Source: Phoenix dactylifera
Lineage: Eukaryota; Streptophyta; Magnoliopsida; Arecales; Arecaceae
DNA: 64,000 nucleotides
Direction: 5' to 3'
Assembly: GCF_009389715.1 (NCBI RefSeq)
Contig: NC_052393.1
Location: forward strand, 186,001 to 250,000
Under the pieces are notes generated by a model. That model was not told where the DNA came from and ran no database searches. It worked only from the letters and a program-made list of their open reading frames with translations. Numbering within the stretch: the stretch's first letter is position 1; every line of letters begins with the position of its first letter. Positions 7,119 to 51,483 of the stretch are shown here, one piece after another. The translations under genes and the position numbers were made by a program.

Positions 7119-8824
7119 ATGTAGATCTCAACATTCAAACATTGATCTCCAAACTAGATTCTAAGAAGCATCTGCTTAGATGCTTCCGATATTTTCCAAA
7201 TATAGATGGCATCAGACCTGCAGCTATTTCACATCCCAAGCTTTTCGAAGCTGTTCGCCAACCTACGTCCAAATGAAAGAGGAAACTTATAGCTGTTTAA
7301 GAGTGGAAATGACAATAGACTAAAGAGATTTTTTTAGCAGAAAAATATATGTTTTGCTCAAATAAAAGAGGTTTTTTTAAGAGTAGGAAGGACTAATCCC
7401 TACCCGCCACCCGATATCCATCCACCCTATCCCACCAAGGCCTCCTGGGCGAGCCACTGCTCAATCAGGTAAATTAAATCAGAGTTGAAAAAGAAGACAG
7501 AGGCCACCTGGAAATTGGCTGGAATAGAATTCTCGACATCTTCCTTTGAAGGGCAAGAGATGGTGCCATCAGAAATTAGGTTTGGTGGTAGAAGCCTAAT
7601 TTCTTGACTTTGGTGCGGAACATGGAAACCATAGAAACCAATCAAATGTATGATATATTATCCACATACAGCCCATCCAGGGTTGAGACCATCACTACTT
7701 TTCCTTCAGAACCTGCAATTTAACAAACCCAAGACCATTACTGAATCCCATAGCACCAGCTCTTGGAGTACGGATGAAATCATCTGACACCAAAGTTCCA
7801 GTTTAGTTCTCTCCTCTCATCTACAAAGAAAAAATAAACTGGTGTTAGCATCACATACTCTTAGACAGCCATTATACCTAACATTCAGAAAGATTTGCAA
7901 CACAAAAAGCAGGTGGACAATATTTAGCATCCTCACTGTTTTCACGGTTTATCTCTTCAGATGCTTGAAATGAAAAAGTTTAGTGCGATGCTATGGATCA
8001 CTTGGGAGCAGCTTAGGGGACAATTAATGGTTATAATTGCACCAATGCAGGAATTCAGTGATTGGCTCATAGTAAGTATATATTAACCTCAGGATGTTCA
8101 GCAATAGCATGGCACATGATCTGCCATTGACATACGTAATATAAACATGTCTGGAAACTAGTCATGATTCCTCAAAAGAAAACTGATTATATGGAACTTT
8201 AATATTAGAAGATTTTTCCTCTGGTCGGTAGCTCTTTTAGGCTCATTTTTCTTATGAGAAACCCTTCTACATTAGATACTTTGGCCAAATATTTTAGTTT
8301 TGAAACTACTTGAATCCTCAAACTCATGCTTGACATGAAAAGTCCACATAAGAATTTGAATGGGCTGATAAATCCATTAACCAGGCCTATAGAGGGCTGA
8401 AAACAAAAGGATAACACAACACAAGTTGGACTTATATCTTTAAGTAGACAAAATTATGCTCATTTAAATTGAGCTAATTAGGGCCTGTTTAATGCTGAAA
8501 GGAGACTGCTGGACTCAAGTCAGTTCATTCAGGTTTGAAAGGCCCTTCCACGTTATGCCCGATAAAAGCTTCTAATGATGGCTAATTTTTAAGTTTGGTC
8601 CCGGGCCAATAAAACTTCATATTTGAGATCTCAATTTCTTTAACCTGTGCAAAAGGGCTAAACCTTATAAATTCAATATATTTGACAAAGAATTGAAATT
8701 ACTCAACCTAAAATTAAGAAATATAAGAACTCATAATCTCAATATTTAGATTAGGAACAAAAAGTACATATTATAATTCCAAGAAAATAGATAAGCTCTG
8801 AACTTAGCCTGAAGGATTTAAAAA
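7119..8824. other. Intergenic, possible decayed coding fragment on the minus strand
   Basis: Mostly featureless. On the minus strand, 7645-7427 is open for 72 codons with a non-repetitive composition (for example ISDGTISCPSKEDVENSIPA). About 7790-7710 reads SDDFIRTPRAGAMGFSNGLG just before a CAG|GT-like junction. I do not recognise the protein and cannot join the pieces into a gene. Confidence 0.25.
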
Positions 8825-9068
8825 TCAGAAAACAAAGACTTGATTTTAGACTTTCTTGTGCTCAAATCATCTATGGTTCGCCATGAATATTTGATCTTTG
8901 TACATAAAAGTCAGAAAACAAAGACTTGATTTAGACTCTCTTGTGCTCAAATCATCTACGGTTCGCCATGAATATTTGATCTTTGTACATAAAAGTCAGA
9001 AAACAAAGACTTGATTTTAGACTCTCTTGTGCTCAAACTATCTATGGCTCACCATGAATATTTGATCT
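8825..9068. repeat. Three tandem copies of an 86-bp unit
   Basis: Units start at 8825, 8911 and 8996 with TCAGAAAACAAAGACTTGAT and run through GCCATGAATATTTGATCTTT. Copies differ at only a few positions. The periods are 86 and 85 bp and the last copy ends near 9068. Confidence 0.9.
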
Positions 9069-13754: not shown

Positions 13755-14523
13755 GATCGTGGACCTAAATGGCACCCTAAAGGATGCCAAATAGAGGTTG
13801 GGATAAAAAATTCATATACATATTTATTTTAAAAAAGATGGATATAAATCTACTATTAAAAATATAAATATAAGTTAAATGGTTAAATTTTATGATCATA
13901 AATTCAAATGTATTATCGAGTGAGAAATAAATTGACTTAATAACATGTTAATAGGGTCACTTATTTTTTTAAAAAAAATTATAAGTGTTAGGTAAGATTA
14001 GATAAAACTCTAAAATAGAACCAAATACAAATTAGATAGTTATTTATACATATTTGCATCTATTTTTCTTTGATGAACAGAAATAAAGGTATCTAGTCAG
14101 ATACTCAAATTTGTATTCATATTTGAATAGATCTATCCTTCATTCTTAGTGCCAAATGAATCAAGCCATACCAATATCATCTCGTGGTCATTCCATATGA
14201 ACCATGGTAGAATCATCTCATGTCATCACCTATCTCTTCTTCTTAGGGCTACAAAATGGATCAGCATCAGCTTATGACCCGATTCAACTCATTCATAAAG
14301 ACTTCCTGGAGCCAAATCAGATTTAAATATTGGACCCCTTTCTGTATAGCGGGTCAAGTAGAAACCCCAAATTTTGATTCGGCTTGATCCGACTTAATTA
14401 GTAAATAACTTGAGCCTACTTATTACTTACCCAACCCGACCGCAGGCAAAACAAAATTCTATAAAATAATTAAACTCCTCTTTGCCCGACCATCCCGCTA
14501 GACTCTAATTCTCTTTTTATAGC
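13755..14523. other. Intergenic, no gene seen
   Basis: AT-rich. The part at 14240-14450 contains short words (AGGGCTACAAAATGGATCAG; CCAACCCGACC) resembling pieces of the satellite unit at 15952-17270. This hints at a common parent repeat. Confidence 0.35.
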
Positions 14524-15059
14524 TGTTTGCTGTTTGGTAACTATATTTTTAAAGTGCTGTGGCACTCTAACATATGTTTGGTAAACAAACTGAGAAAATA
14601 CTTTTATATGACAAAATTATCATAAAGGACATTGCATAGTATTATACAATAGAGCATAATAAAACATAACATATATTAATACATAATATACGATATAGTA
14701 TAATATTACTGTAATATAAAATATTATTATTATAATATAGTAATATGACATTGCATAGCATAGCATAATGGTAATATAATTATTAGAGTAAATTAATTTT
14801 CTATAATATAACATAATATTAAATTATTTAACATAACATATTAATATATTATGATATAATTTAATATATATTATATTTATAGTATAATACAATAATAAAG
14901 ATATAAAATATTATAATTATTAGTATTAATTAATTTGTCATAATATAACATAATATTAAATTATTTAAAATAACATATTAATATATTATGATATAAATAT
15001 TTATTCATTGAAATATATTTATTTATTATCTTATTTATTTATTCATTCATTCATTTATA

Positions 15060-15230
15060 TAAATATTTATTTATGCATTTATTTATTTATTTATTCTTTT
15101 TTTTCTTTTATTTTCTTTTCTTCCCTTTTTTTTCTTTCCTTTTCTTCCTTTTTTTTCCTTTTCTTTTTCTTTTCTTTTTTTTTCTTCTCTTCTTCTCCTT
15201 CCTTCCTCTCCCCCCTTCTCTGTTCTTCTC
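15060..15230. repeat. TTTA microsatellite and polypyrimidine tract
   Basis: TTTA/TTCA units grade into about 140 bases of almost pure T and C (TTTTC, TTCC units). The complementary strand is polypurine. Confidence 0.9.
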
Positions 15231-15756
15231 CTCTCGCGCGGTCGGCAGCGCCGGAAGGGGGCCAGGCCGCGGCGGCCGCGGGAGGGGGTCGGGCCAAGGC
15301 CAGCAGCGCCTGCGGCTGTCTCGACGGCCGTGGTTGGCCCCCTGGGAAGGGTTCTCCTCCCGCGTGGCCAACGACGCCGGAGGGGCTGCGGCACTGCGGC
15401 GGCGGGGGAGAGGGAGGGGGTGCGGCACTGCGGCGGCAGGGGAGAGGGAGGGGGAGGGAGCGGCTGCGGTGGCGGGGGAGAGGGAGGGGGTGCGGCGCTG
15501 CAGCGGGGTGGGGGTGGGGGTGGGGTGAGGGCGTGGGTGGGAGAGGAACAGGCGGTGAGATGAGATTTTGGGGAGAAATTTTTTTTTAAAAATGGAAGTA
15601 TTTTGGTCAAAAATAGAGCTTCCCGACAAAGCTGAAAATAATATTTTCGGAAAGCTCCAAATTGGAGCTTCTCCCTAAAAGCTGTTTTCAACTTTCCGCA
15701 AAAGTTGAAACAGCTTTCCAAAAATTTTACCAAACACCATTTTATATCTAAAAGTA

Positions 15757-15796
15757 CTTTTGGAGGGCCAGAAAGTGCTTTTTGGCCCTCCAAAAG
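15757..15796. repeat. Perfect 14-bp inverted repeat (hairpin)
   Basis: CTTTTGGAGGGCCA (15757-15770) is matched exactly by its reverse complement at 15783-15796, with a 12-base spacer. It lies inside the right end of the surrounding TIR element. Confidence 0.9.
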
Positions 15797-15951
15797 CTCC
15801 CCCAAACAGGGCTTAATTCTCTTTTATCTTTTCCAAAACTTTTGCCCGAGCCATCCTCACATCCTCCTCTTGCCTTGAACCGGTCATTTGGTGATATTAG
15901 CCTCCTCGATAGTCTGATCATATCTGACATTCATGCAACTCAAACGAGTTG

Positions 15952-17270
15952 CTAGGTCTTGAATAATTTCCATAAACCCAACTCGGTCAGCTATTGAGTT
16001 GGGTCCACGTCTAATATCAACATGAAGCTAGCTCGGGTTGAGATCAATCATTTTTGGATCCGACCAACAGATTTGCAACCCTAATATCTCTTCTCCAAAG
16101 GATAACCCCAACTACAGCTGCTGGGTCTAGAATAATTTCCATAAACCCAACTCGGTCAGCTATTGAGTTGGGTCTACATCTAATATCAACATGAAACTAG
16201 CTCGGGTTGAGATCAATCATTTTCGGATCCGACCAACAGATTTGCAACCCTAATATCTCTTCTCCAAAGAATAACCCCAACTACAGCTGCTGGGTCTTGA
16301 ATAATTTCCATAAACCCAACTCGGTCATATTGAGTTGGGTCCACGTCTAATATCAACATGAAACTAGCTCGGGTTCAGATTAATCATTTCCGGATCCGAC
16401 CAATAGATTTACAGCCCTAATATCTCTTCTCCAAAGGATAACCCCAGCTACAGCTACTGGGTCTTGAATAATTTCCATAAACCCAACTCGGGCAGCTATT
16501 GAGTTGGGTCCACGTCTAATATCAACATGAAACTAGCTCGAGTTGAGATCAATCATTTTCGAGTCCGACCAACAGATTTGCAACCCTAATATCTCTTCTC
16601 CAAAGGATAACCCCAACTACAGCTGCTGGGTCTAGAATAATTTCCATAAACCCAACTCGGTCAGCTATTGAGTTGGGTCTACGTCTAATATCAACATGAA
16701 ACTAGCTCGGGTTGAGATCAATCATTTTCGGATCCGACCAATAGATTTGCAACCCTAATATCTCTTCTCCAAAGAATAACCCCAACTACAGCTGCTGGGT
16801 CTTGAATAATTTCCATAAACCCAACTCGGTCATATTGAGTTGGGTCCACGTCTAATATCAACATGAAACTAGCTCGGGTTCAGATTAATCATTTCCGGAT
16901 CCGACCAATAGATTTACAGCCCTAATATCTCTTCTCCAAAGGATAACCCCAGCTACAGCTGCTGGGTCTTGAATAATTTCCATAAACCCAACTCGGTCAG
17001 CTATTGAGTTGGGTCCACGTCTAATATCAACATGAAACTAGCTCGGGTTGAGATCAATCATTTTCGAGTCCGACCAACAGATTTGCAACCCTAATATCTC
17101 TTCTCCAAAGGATAACCCCAACTACAGCTGCTGGGTCTTGAATAATGTCCATAAACCCAACGCGGTCAGCTATTGAGTTGCGCCCATGTCTAATATCAAC
17201 ACTCGGGTCCAACGGATCTGCAACCCTAATATCTCCTTCTCCAAAGGATAAACCCGACTAGAGCGGCTGT
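15952..17270. repeat. Satellite-like array, about 169-bp unit in a 505-bp trimer
   Basis: Units begin at 15952, 16121, 16290, 16457, 16626, 16795, 16962 and 17131, giving lengths of 169, 169, 167, 169, 169, 167 and 169. The 167-bp units lack part of GGTCAGCTATTG. The variants recur every third unit: TCTAG at 16121 and 16626, the short form with GGTTCAGATTAATC at 16290 and 16795, CGAGTCC at 16457 and 16962. All these offsets equal 505 bp. Each full unit holds an inverted pair ACCCAACTC / GAGTTGGGT around an 11-base loop. The last unit is internally deleted and diverged. The array abuts the NAGK upstream region. Confidence 0.95.
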
Positions 17271-17413
17271 GATCACAACCCAACGCCGTTCTTCCAAGCC
17301 TCCGCCTCCCACGTCTTTCTGTTAGCAATTCGGTCAAACACCTGGGGAGGGTTGACGCAGAGGGACGGTCGGTCGGTCGGTCCCAGGCAGAGTAGAGCTA
17401 ACGGGAAGGAAAG
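17271..17413 (+). promoter_or_regulatory. Short NAGK upstream region / 5' leader
   Basis: Only about 143 bp separate the last satellite unit from the NAGK ATG. I see no TATA box here. The GGTCGGTCGGTCGG run near 17368 is the only striking feature. The core promoter must lie in this stretch or within the repeat array. Confidence 0.4.
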
Positions 17414-18454
17414 ATGCTGGCCGGGAGGACAACTACTCCGCACCACCAACGCCCCTTCCTCCCCTCGAAGCCCCTCCAGATCCCTAACTCGAACCCTAGT
17501 CCTGGCCTCAGCCTCCGATCCGCCAGGGCCCCCCGCCTCCTTTCTTCCCTCAAGTCCACCCCGCTCAGCAGCAGCACCGCGGCGGCTCCGCCTCTCCAGA
17601 CACCGCCCCAGACGCGCGTGGACATCCTCTCGGAGTCGCTCCCCTTCATCCAGCGGTTCCGCGGGAAGACGATCGTGGTCAAGTATGGCGGCGCCGCCAT
17701 GAAGTCCCCGGCCCTCCAGTCCTCCGTCATCAACGACCTCGTCCTCCTTGCCTGCGTCGGCCTCCGCCCCGTCCTCGTCCACGGCGGCGGCCCGGAGATC
17801 AATTCGTGGCTCCTCCGCCTCGGCTACCAGCCCCAGTTCCACAACGGCCTCCGCGTCACGGACGCCCTCACCATGGAGGTGGTCGAGATGGTCCTCGTCG
17901 GCAAGGTGAACAAATCGCTCGTCTCCCTCATCAACGTCGCCGGCGCCACCGCCGTGGGCCTCTGCGGCAAGGACGCCCGGCTCCTCACCGCCCGCCCCGC
18001 CCCCGACGCCGCGGCCCTGGGCTTCGTGGGCGAGGTGGCCCGCGTGGACCCCAGCATCCTCCGGCCCATCCTGGCGGGCGGCCACATCCCCGTGATCGCC
18101 TCCGTGGCGGCGGACGAGGCCGGGCAGGGCTACAACTTGAACGCGGACACCGCGGCGGGGGAGATCGCGGCCGCCGTGGGGGCGGAGAAGCTGATCCTGC
18201 TGACGGACGTGGCGGGGATCCTGGAGGACCGGAACGACCCGGGGAGCCTGGTGAAGGAGATCGACATCGGCGGGGTGAGGAGGATGGTGGAGGAGGGGAA
18301 GGTCGCCGGCGGGATGATCCCCAAGGTCCACTGCTGCGTCAGGTCGCTCGCCCAGGGTGTCCGAACCGCCAGCATCATCGACGGCCGCGTCCCCCACTCT
18401 CTGCTCCTCGAGATTCTCACCGACGAGGGAGCCGGGACCATGATCAAGGGTTGA
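17414..18454 (+). CDS. NAGK: Acetylglutamate kinase, chloroplastic
   Basis: It phosphorylates N-acetylglutamate with ATP, the second and controlling step of arginine synthesis in plastids; in plants it is feedback-inhibited by arginine and relieved by PII. The gene is a single 346-codon frame. Residues 1 to about 65 are rich in Ser, Thr, Pro and Arg with few acids, as in a plastid transit peptide. The amino-acid kinase fold follows: VVKYGGAAM (Lys90), HGGGPEI (123-129), NGLRVTD (144-150), CGKDARL (184-190), [10 protein letters not shown] (241-250, nucleotide and substrate binding), TDVAGIL (264-270), and the C-terminal [11 protein letters not shown] and EGAGTMI segments that belong to the arginine-sensitive type. 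The length fits plant enzymes. Codon use is strongly GC-biased. The start is the first ATG of the frame and precedes the transit peptide. A 169-bp satellite ends about 140 bp upstream. Confidence 0.96.
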
Positions 18455-46421: not shown

Positions 46422-46676
46422 CCAGCCGAGGTCTTCTTTCTCGATCCCCTCATGTGCCAAGCACGGGTCAGGGTCGGCCCTAACCTATTCAGGCCGGCCC
46501 ACAAGCCCACAAGCTGGGCTCGTCAGGATCGAGCTGGGCCGGGCCACTCCAGCCGAGGTCTTCTTTCTCGATCCCCTCATGTGCCAAGCATGGGTCAGGG
46601 TCGGCCCTAGCCTATTCAGGCCGGCCCGCAAGCCCACAAGCTGGGCTAGTCAGAATCAGGCTAGGCCGGGCCACTC
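46422..46676. repeat. Tandem duplication, 127-bp unit
   Basis: CCAGCCGAGGTCTTCTTTCT starts at 46422 and again at 46549. The two copies agree almost throughout (GTCAGGGTCGGCCCTA, TATTCAGGCCGGCCC, CACAAGCTGGGCT). Confidence 0.95.
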
Positions 46677-49600
46677 CAAGTCGGCTCATGAGCCCAAAAA
46701 TTTGGATTATTATAGTATTAGTGATGTGGCGAAGACAATGAAGATGGTGGCTATGATGTTATAGAGACGATAGTGGCATGGTAGCGTTATTGGTTCTGGC
46801 CATGCAGCAGAGGTGACAACGATAGCAATAATAACAGTATGGTAGTCGCGAGGTGCTAGTGATATAGTAAAGGTAATGATAATAGTAGGATTGGTATGGT
46901 GAATGCAACAACAATGGATGGTGATGGGGGTGATGATAAAGATGATAACTACAATAACGGCGGAGAAAATAGCAGTGGTGACGGAGATGGTATTGACGAT
47001 AGCAGTACAAAAAACATAATTTTTTTATTTTTGAAAATTTTCCAAGAATTTTTACTTTATTTTTCTTGAAGTAATTAAAAATACTTTTAAAAAATAAAAA
47101 ATAAAAATAAAAGCATCAAGCATGTTTTCTTATCTTTTTTTTTAATTTTATTTTTTAAAATAAAAAATAAGAAATAAAGTTGATGTCAAATAATTTTAAG
47201 CCTTTCATCCTTACAGTATGCAACATAGTTACTTACAATGTGAAGGATATTTATGAAGTATTCATTATTTTATATTTCAAGTTACTAATAATGTGAAATG
47301 TTTGGACCGTTTTGCTATTAATTTATAATAATTTTCACGCATCATTTCCTGAAGTATTTGTAAATTGCATATCAATCCTTCAATTCTTTAAATCTGTCCA
47401 CCAATTTCTCAATCCATTTGATTTAGTTAAAAATACTGGAAAAGCCACTTCTCTTCAACCCTTTATCAAGTCTCTTCCACTACCTTATTTGTATTGCCAA
47501 ACCGATGGCATAAAATATAAATTTGGGTTTTAAATATTAATATGGAATTTGAAGTATTATCGAATACATATGTAAATCCAGAAGATTTTAGAGAATAATA
47601 TAAAAAAATAAAGCTATAGAAAGGTAAAAATAATGAAAAATAAAGTAAGTGGTCCGGAATTCTTGGTGTGTAACAGTTTTGAAAATAAAAAAGTTTCTCT
47701 AATTAGCGTGCAGCAAATTTTCATTGGATAGATAATTTTTTTATCTGAATTAGTGAAGGCTAATATCCACCTTCTGTCTCGTATCCACCCTGACTCTCAA
47801 GGGCTAACGTCGGTCGAAAGTTAATCCCCATTCTGTTATTGAAGCAGCGAAGGACACCCCGCACCAACTGGCTGAATCAAGTCAAAATTCTAACTTGCAC
47901 TTAGACTCAATTAAAATCTAATAAAGGTTTAATTTTTTTGACAGAAATTAATCAGGTTTTTTTTATAAAAAAAAAGTCTGTCTCTACCTAATTCGAACAG
48001 AGTTGGGTTGTAATGGAGTTAGGAGGTCATCGACTCGATCGATTTCTCTCTACTGAAGTAGAGCCACAAAATGATACGTACAAGTCCGCGCTATGGAGGA
48101 TCCAAACTCGGTCCACAAATGGCTCCATACAATCGTGCTAGCATCCATAATTTGAATTGCAATCAAAATGGTGGGATCCGAATCAATTCCCAAGTTTGTC
48201 GTGTCCAGACGCCTTGGTTGAATGAACCAATGAATGTAGGCCTCCATCATCAATCTTAGTATTATGGCAAGAACATCAATATAGAATATTAGTCTTCCTT
48301 ACTTCTCCTACTTGCTTGAGAATTGTTTGACATCGTAAGAAATTAGTTTATGTGGCCATATATCGATTTATAAGTCTCAAATCAACGAAGTAATGGCAAA
48401 TCTCATCTTGTTCTATTAACAAGCAAGCTAGGGATTTCTTTTTCTTTCTTTTTTATGGTAGAACAAGGAGATGTAGGCTTGAATTACTGATATAAAAAAA
48501 AGTACAACCAAGTTTAAAAAGTTTCAGCAGCATCTCGAACCTCAAAACAGAAACTACCACCTAGGGATCTTAATAGCTACGTCTCTACCGAGATTTACAA
48601 AGTGGGGCTTCCATCAATACAAATTATCAGCTATAAGCACTCAAGATCAATTTCATTTCAATATTTGTTTATATCAGAAGTAAAACGAAGAGAAATAGAA
48701 ACTCAAAATTAGATATTCTTCGTCTTGGCGGGTGACCGAGGGAAGGATGACCCAGGGCCTCGGTTTGCCTTGATAAAAATGAATGTTGGAAAAATTTTGG
48801 ACGGGACCAAAACATTTTCAATATCTTGAATTAACAATTAAATGAAAAGTATTTTCAATCACTTACCCAAAAAAAAATATTCAAGTAAATAAAATATCCA
48901 TCAAAATATATTAGCTAATATATTGATATCACATCAGCTAATAATTTTTTTTTATTTTTGAAAGAATCAAAAGGAAAACATAGACCAATAACTTGAGACA
49001 TCCATTATCTGCATCAGCCGAGACAAAAGCCCCTGGAGAGTATCCAATTTTGATCCGTGTTTGGATTCGAAGCAGGAATGTCGGCCAAGAGGAGTATCTT
49101 TTGCAGCTAGGCGAGTGGATTAAAGCGTGTGAGAGCAATGGCTAGTTATTGTCAGAGTCGCCACCATAAAAGGAGGAGGCTAATGCTGCCAAGTTTCTAA
49201 CATGACTGGGCCCACGGCAAGTGTCACTTGGATCAGACAAGCACTTGATACCAGAGAAACGTAATTTTCTTAGATGCTAATTTTGTTCTTTATGATTTTT
49301 TCAAGGGTTGCTCGGCGTCTGACGTCCCAAGGGACGGTTTGGTAGTTCTCGGCCAGTATCTCGCTCTTTTTTTTTTTTTTTTTTTGTAAGACTCATATAT
49401 TTTTAGTATAAATTTATTTAAAAAATATTAAAAAATAATAACTTTAAAGCATTTAGGCAGCTTTCTTTTAGTAATCTAGAGAGCTCCTTCAAAATGATCA
49501 GCTATCTCAAAAAAGTCATTTGCAGCAAGATAGTTCCGATGTTTGGCGCCAATAGAGCAAAGATTTTGCGCCTAGCTGCCGCTGAACTGAGCGTCCGCTC

Positions 49601-51087: not shown

Positions 51088-51233
51088 AAGGAATGCTATA
51101 TCGGTCAGTTCAGTCCGTATCGAATCGATCCAATTTTTGACCGATCTAATTTGGCGTTAAAAAATGGAACCTGTTACGGGGGAACTAAGCCGCCATGCTC
51201 CACGTGACCGGCACGCGCGCCCATGAAGACTAC

Positions 51234-51483
51234 GGCTGTCCTTTGATCCAGCAATCCGACCCCGAGTCGGACATCTTCGGCTCCACAGCCCGACCTCGAG
51301 TCGGCTGCCCTTCGATCCAGCAGTCCGGCCCCGAGTCGGACATCTTCGGCTTCGCAGCCCGACCCCGAGTCGGCTGCCCCTTAATCTAGCAATCCGACCC
51401 CAAGTCGGATATCCTCAGCACCGCAGCCCGACCCCGAGTCGGCTGCCCCCTGATCCAGCACTCCGACCCCGAGTCGGAGATCT
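51234..51483. repeat. About 3.5 copies of a 69-bp unit inside the LTR
   Basis: GATCCAGCAATCCGACCCCG-type units recur with offsets of 69 to 70 bp (starts aligned at 51241, 51310, 51380, 51448). Each has CCGAC-CCCGA-GTCGG, a short inverted pair, and a second CCGAGTCGGCTGCCC half. Confidence 0.85.

Follow-up and report, generated by a model that had tools for sequence, protein, structure and literature searches.

Arrays of the higher-order alpha-satellite type combine a near-170-bp unit with a multimeric register. Xstir of Xenopus, a MITE-derived satellite, consists of tandem repeats that stem from a non-autonomous DNA transposon, namely from its terminal inverted repeat, and is described as satellite DNA in a review (PMC9659126). 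The promoter of Arabidopsis FWA carries SINE-related tandem repeats that formed independently in related species; imprinting and methylation were shown there, and the tandem structure itself proved dispensable, as far as the available part of that report goes (PMC2270340). In maize, Ac ends generate tandem direct duplications by reversed-ends transposition: excerpts of the source give nine experimental duplications of 8157 bp to about 5.3 Mb and three small hAT-associated duplications identified in the maize genome, with an 8-bp target-site duplication for Ac/Ds and such 8-bp duplications beside the transposon ends at the junctions (PMC3744419).

The array described here lies in a window of 64,000 nucleotides of the date palm genome (C2:186001-250000), the whole stretch of DNA that was analyzed. 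It has the near-170-bp unit and multimeric register of alpha-satellite type arrays, but its multimer is not multicopy and no close copies of its unit were found elsewhere. Like Xstir, it is built from the end of a non-autonomous DNA transposon, whereas by search it comprises one locus with eight units. Like the FWA repeats, it is a transposon-derived tandem repeat 5′ of a gene, but its source is a hAT-like rather than a SINE-related sequence, its unit includes DNA that probably flanked the insertion, and, unlike FWA with its imprinting and methylation, it is known from sequence alone. It shares with the maize Ac/Ds duplications a tandem direct duplication beside a hAT element, but the 8-bp duplications found at transposon ends in the maize junctions are absent from its junctions. 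Very probably, it is a local tandem repeat that nucleated on an old, non-autonomous hAT-like transposon end upstream of a gene for N-acetylglutamate kinase (NAGK). The features of the locus, with repeat units designated u1 to u8, are as follows.

14244-14418, plus strand: opposite end (end B) of the hAT-like element, from the terminal TAGGG, probably belonging to the element of the array (end-B profile of six genomic copies).
15914-15951, minus strand: interior part of the element next to u1, not included in the array (nine-copy profile with shuffled flanks).
15952-16120, minus strand: u1, 169 bp, with the element terminus at 15952-16083 and then 37 bp of putatively flank-derived DNA (unit alignment and end profile).
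16121-16625, minus strand: 505-bp block, copy 1 (u2, u3, and u4) (unit alignment and column shuffles).
16626-17130, minus strand: 505-bp block, copy 2 (u5, u6, and u7), with five differences from copy 1 (unit alignment and column shuffles).
17131-17264, minus strand: u8, the most diverged unit, with internal deletions and the element terminus at 17228 (unit alignment and end profile).
17229-17264, no strand assigned: putatively flank-derived segment beside the element terminus, with a counterpart in every unit (nine genomic copies, when aligned, lose similarity at or within a few bases of the TAGGG terminus).
17322-17413, plus strand: gene leader common to the NAGK paralogue, 80% identical over 92 bp (DNA comparison; detected homology stops here).
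17414-18454, plus strand: intact single-exon open reading frame (ORF) of 346 amino acids, plastid-type NAGK (Pfam PF00696, E 1.1e-44; 4usj and 2rd5).

When TRF was applied to the whole window, it placed a tandem array of period 169 at 15950-17201, and unit alignment resolved eight direct repeat units spanning 15952-17264, with starts at 15952, 16121, 16290, 16457, 16626, 16795, 16962, and 17131 and lengths of 169, 169, 167, 169, 169, 167, 169, and 134 bp. The eight starts and the 169/169/167 lengths reported in an earlier, sequence-only reading were therefore borne out, while the array end that it set at 17270 moves to ∼17264, where the degenerate last unit stops. Identity to u2 is 92 to 100% for u1 to u7 and 71% for u8, which has internal deletions. 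That reading had also assigned the inverted pair ACCCAACTC / GAGTTGGGT to each full unit; read from the letters, the pair is intact in all seven (u1 to u7) and broken in u8. It could account for the weak fold signal of the unit, whose single-strand DNA fold (z of −1.7, equalled by 11 of 200 shuffles) is weakly better than that of shuffled sequence. A protein-coding repeat was ruled out, as no stop-free stretch in the array exceeds 67 codons. Between 14000 and 18500, no Rfam family reached its gathering score. A scan for viral contigs found nothing. A scan for bacterial-type promoters and terminators returned seven terminator-like hairpins at unit junctions (1.3 expected), which are meaningless in a plant and are repeated with the unit. 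Elsewhere in the window, TRF reported an 85-bp tandem repeat (8819-9068; 2.9 copies), a 69-bp tandem repeat with CCGACCCCGAGTCGG motifs (51233-51483; 3.6 copies), and two copies of a 127-bp unit rich in GGGTC and GGCCC (46422-46678; 93% matches), the last of which is possibly another transposon-derived duplication.

The identity of the unit as transposon was reached through a weak match on C11. This match appeared, in addition to the locus itself, when the assembly (773,078,369 bp in 2391 contigs) was searched with the whole array; it covers ∼130 bp at 69% identity and terminates at TTAGGGGTGCAAAT. Among 20 arbitrary 10-kb pieces of the genome, one contained a copy with both ends (L022:5961-6806), and a genome search with this copy gave at least 42 matches, the query copy included (best 40 of 433 first-look candidates scored), which define a dispersed family. 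Six further copies whose match started at element position 1 to 4 were taken from this search. One of them (L037), with no recognisable far end in its stretch, was excluded when target sites, end B, and full-length copies were counted. The six-copy set comprises the other five and the L022 copy, and their end bases were chosen by eye in the alignment.

The six full-length copies measure 843 to 891 bp (an element of ∼0.85 kb). Their target-site duplications have a sharp optimum at 8 bp, with 34 of 48 positions matching against 22 to 47% for the other lengths from 2 to 12, and the true pairing of flanks was the best of 720 pairings. In four copies, 6 or 7 of the 8 positions agree; the duplications of L036 (4/8) and L038 (5/8) are weak. 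Short terminal inverted repeats are also present: five of the six copies start with TAGG (four with TAGGG; L039 with CATGG), and the far ends read CCCTA in four and ACCTA and CCTTA in the others. An 8-bp target-site duplication is a hAT signature, and the dispersed family carries both this duplication and the short terminal inverted repeats of the hAT superfamily. The copies are 66 to 76% identical to each other and hold no stop-free stretch longer than 94 codons, so that the family looks old and non-autonomous. On L004, 640-2313 and 3441-4538 probably represent two adjacent family members that face opposite ways and differ in internal length. A single element with ends at 640 and 4540 is disfavoured there, since the bases beside those ends mismatch and the end-B matches at 2313 and 3441 pair separately.

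The units of the array match the end of this family. With a profile of the end in nine genomic copies, the seven full units scored 61 to 83 bits (E down to 4e-25) and u8 scored 30.7 bits; 500 shuffled units reached at most 2.1 bits, compared with 76.2 bits for u5. An earlier test against three single copies had given 55.2 bits, with a maximum of 31.6 in 1000 shuffles. A full-element profile matched seven of the eight units, as well as the L004 and L022 copies, from positions 1 to 3, and for u8 the reported stretch begins further in. Past the terminus, nothing visible is common to the units and the nine copies in the alignment. As similarity stops at the terminus, ∼132 bp of each full unit can be assigned to the terminus of a hAT-like element, and the remaining 37 bp probably flanked the insertion.

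The window contains both types of hAT-like element end, in the expected orientation. End B, at 14244-14418, matched its profile from position 1 (E 8.8e-6 in a 282-kb local set) and scored 21.3 bits; of 1000 dinucleotide shuffles, 12 produced a match at all, the highest at 1.0 bits. On the array side, u1 with its left flank scored 82.6 bits and u1 alone 69.5, and none of 500 shuffled flanks reached 82.6 (maximum, 79.8); pairwise tests of the left flank against three single copies were not significant (440 to 821 of 1000 shuffles equal, or 52 to 542 in the anchored form). Given the end at 14244 and the interior at 15914-15951, u1 faces the element and u8 faces the host DNA. No match to the family profile was found at 14419-15913. 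We infer that the two ends belong to one element running from 14244 to 17228, of which the array is the enlarged right end plus flank. The 8-mers beside these ends (14236-14243 and after 17228) match poorly, at ∼4 of 8 positions, and share only a displaced TATCTCTTCT-like stretch. Between the ends, inspection of 15560-15830 by eye suggests another small transposon, unrelated to the first, in a sequence that ends in CTCCCCCAAACAGGGC and contains inverted motifs resembling AAGCTTTTGG.

The multimeric register involves six of the units. In 505 bp, u2-u4 and u5-u7 have five differences (1.0% divergence), two between u2 and u5, one between u3 and u6, and two between u4 and u7. The pattern u2=u5, u3=u6, u4=u7 fits 16 of the 21 variable columns of u1 to u7 and is obeyed by 13 of 14 informative columns (the exception being column 117). 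None of 20,000 column shuffles matched the observed five differences; in a weaker test, 48 of the 5040 orders of the seven units equalled the observed fit. The outer units are out of register: u1 is separated by seven events each from u2, u4, and u5 and by five from u7, and u8 is separated from u5 by 18. Because the register is limited to u2-u4 versus u5-u7, with u1 and u8 outside, it points to one three-unit duplication rather than a higher-order array, and a single 505-bp duplication of u2-u4 explains it. Recurrence of variants every 505 bp, proposed as exact from the letters, holds for these two blocks, apart from their five differences, and fails for the whole array. Likewise, the proposal that the trimer and not the monomer was amplified last survives as a single duplication of u2-u4 into u5-u7 and is lost as a description of a higher-order array, in which many multimer copies would stand in register; here the block is present only twice. 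At a palm substitution rate of 2.6e-9 per site per year, the 1.0% divergence would make the block duplication roughly 2 million years old. It is very improbable that the 505-bp duplication was created during assembly: the block copies differ at five sites, and a search with the stretch adjoining the array located it at a single place in the assembly, though this search missed the 80% leader of the paralogue, so that its absences concern close copies only. Furthermore, the published date palm BC4 male assembly, which fits the present one, was built on PacBio reads with an N50 of 18.5 kb, far exceeding the array, according to the available part of its report (PMC6794320).

The unit length near 170 bp and the 505-bp register would also suit a true higher-order satellite, centromeric or subtelomeric, of which an outlying array stands beside a gene; a satellite or centromere-type array had been suggested from the letters. 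A genome search with one 169-bp unit returned the eight units of this locus only and no close copy elsewhere, whereas a satellite monomer family would occupy several loci; the search missed the 69% relative on C11, so its single candidate place refers to close copies. Centromere arrays can be missing from assembled genomes, and the unit search alone therefore does not settle the matter. Against a satellite stand also the two block copies and the ancestry of the unit, most of which comes from the terminus of a dispersed hAT-like element, and TRF gave no telomere-type array within the initial 10 kb of this pseudomolecule. A centromeric or subtelomeric satellite family was rejected on the lack of close copies elsewhere and of a telomere-type array at the pseudomolecule start, and we regard an outlying satellite array as barely credible. 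The same initial 10 kb holds, at L003:3003-7706, repeated clusters of a 31-bp unit of the GGCCACTGGCGGGGCCGGCTCAGT type. The earlier reading called a 1.3-kb array beside a gene unusual. Counted irrespective of their distance from genes, arrays of such size are no exception in this genome: in 20 arbitrarily placed 10-kb genome pieces, TRF found six arrays with a period of at least 60 in five pieces, one of them of 1.8 kb. At L023:5522-7331, in an arbitrarily sampled piece, a 117-bp unit is repeated in tandem 15.6 times over 1.8 kb. Among the literature matches listed, no report of the present array was found, which is no proof of absence.

The preferred reading, a local repeat that grew on a transposon end, would involve the following steps. 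(i) An old, non-autonomous hAT-like element would have inserted just upstream of a date palm NAGK gene. (ii) About 169 bp, comprising the terminal 132 bp of the element and the neighbouring 37 bp of host DNA, would have been duplicated in tandem, this first duplication occurring by template switching or microhomology end joining. (iii) The array may then have grown to approximately five units, which drifted 4 to 11% apart. (iv) Finally, u2-u4 would have been copied as a 505-bp block by one unequal exchange or segmental duplication, giving eight units. Step ii is suggested by the unit junctions, at which sequence 132 bp within the element meets sequence 37 bp beyond its terminus. The left breakpoint has the context TTGCTAGG and the right one GCGGCTGTG; the two have GCT in common, and from these three shared bases we infer template switching or microhomology end joining. 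The maize precedents raise the alternative that aberrant hAT transposition involving reversed ends made the first duplication, since Ac ends produce tandem direct duplications in this way and small examples occur in the maize genome. However, that mechanism puts a transposon end, with its 8-bp target-site duplication, at the junction, whereas the present junctions lie inside the element on one side and out in host DNA on the other, and we consider it highly unlikely here.

The gene beside the array encodes a protein whose best solved relatives are the acetylglutamate kinases 4usj (chloroplastic; E 1.1e-140) and 2rd5. A paralogue on C5 encodes a protein 88% identical to it. Upstream of the ATG, DNA homology between the two genes was detected for 92 bp, the length of the shared leader; a further 57 bp separate the leader from the array, whose end lies 149 bp from the ATG. 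Beyond the leader, no similarity to the paralogue was detected other than a 30-bp low-complexity match, and the 1.5 kb upstream of the paralogue contains no unit match. The array would thus have arisen after the paralogues split or have been lost from the other copy.

With this position, and with paralogue similarity ending there, the array might act as the NAGK proximal promoter, in which repeated transposon-end motifs or repeat methylation would tune expression of this paralogue, as the SINE-related sequence does at Arabidopsis FWA. The units repeat the putative motifs AACCCTAA (six of eight units), CAGCTG (six of eight), and CCACGTC (five of eight), and FWA provides a precedent in which promoter repeats related to a transposon have epigenetic effects. 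However, the CpG observed/expected ratio of the array (0.68, versus 0.75 across the window) indicates slight depletion and no clear methylation footprint, and at FWA the tandem structure was dispensable in the available part of the report (PMC2270340). We consider a promoter role unlikely, if with some minority chance, and the array is most likely neutral for the NAGK gene. A more elaborate possibility is that the repeated hAT end is the proximal promoter of one of the two NAGK paralogues and that its copy number, altered 169 or 505 bp at a time through unequal exchange, sets the expression of the arginine pathway, or switches it epigenetically, among date palm cultivars; this would be a quite unlikely outcome.

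The locus provides a worked example of the birth of a tandem array, in which a transposon end and its flank would have been duplicated in place, have drifted apart, and have been enlarged by a multi-unit block. It indicates that an array can have near-170-bp units and a multimer register without being centromeric, and the NAGK paralogue without the array offers a simple natural test of the effects of such arrays on promoters.
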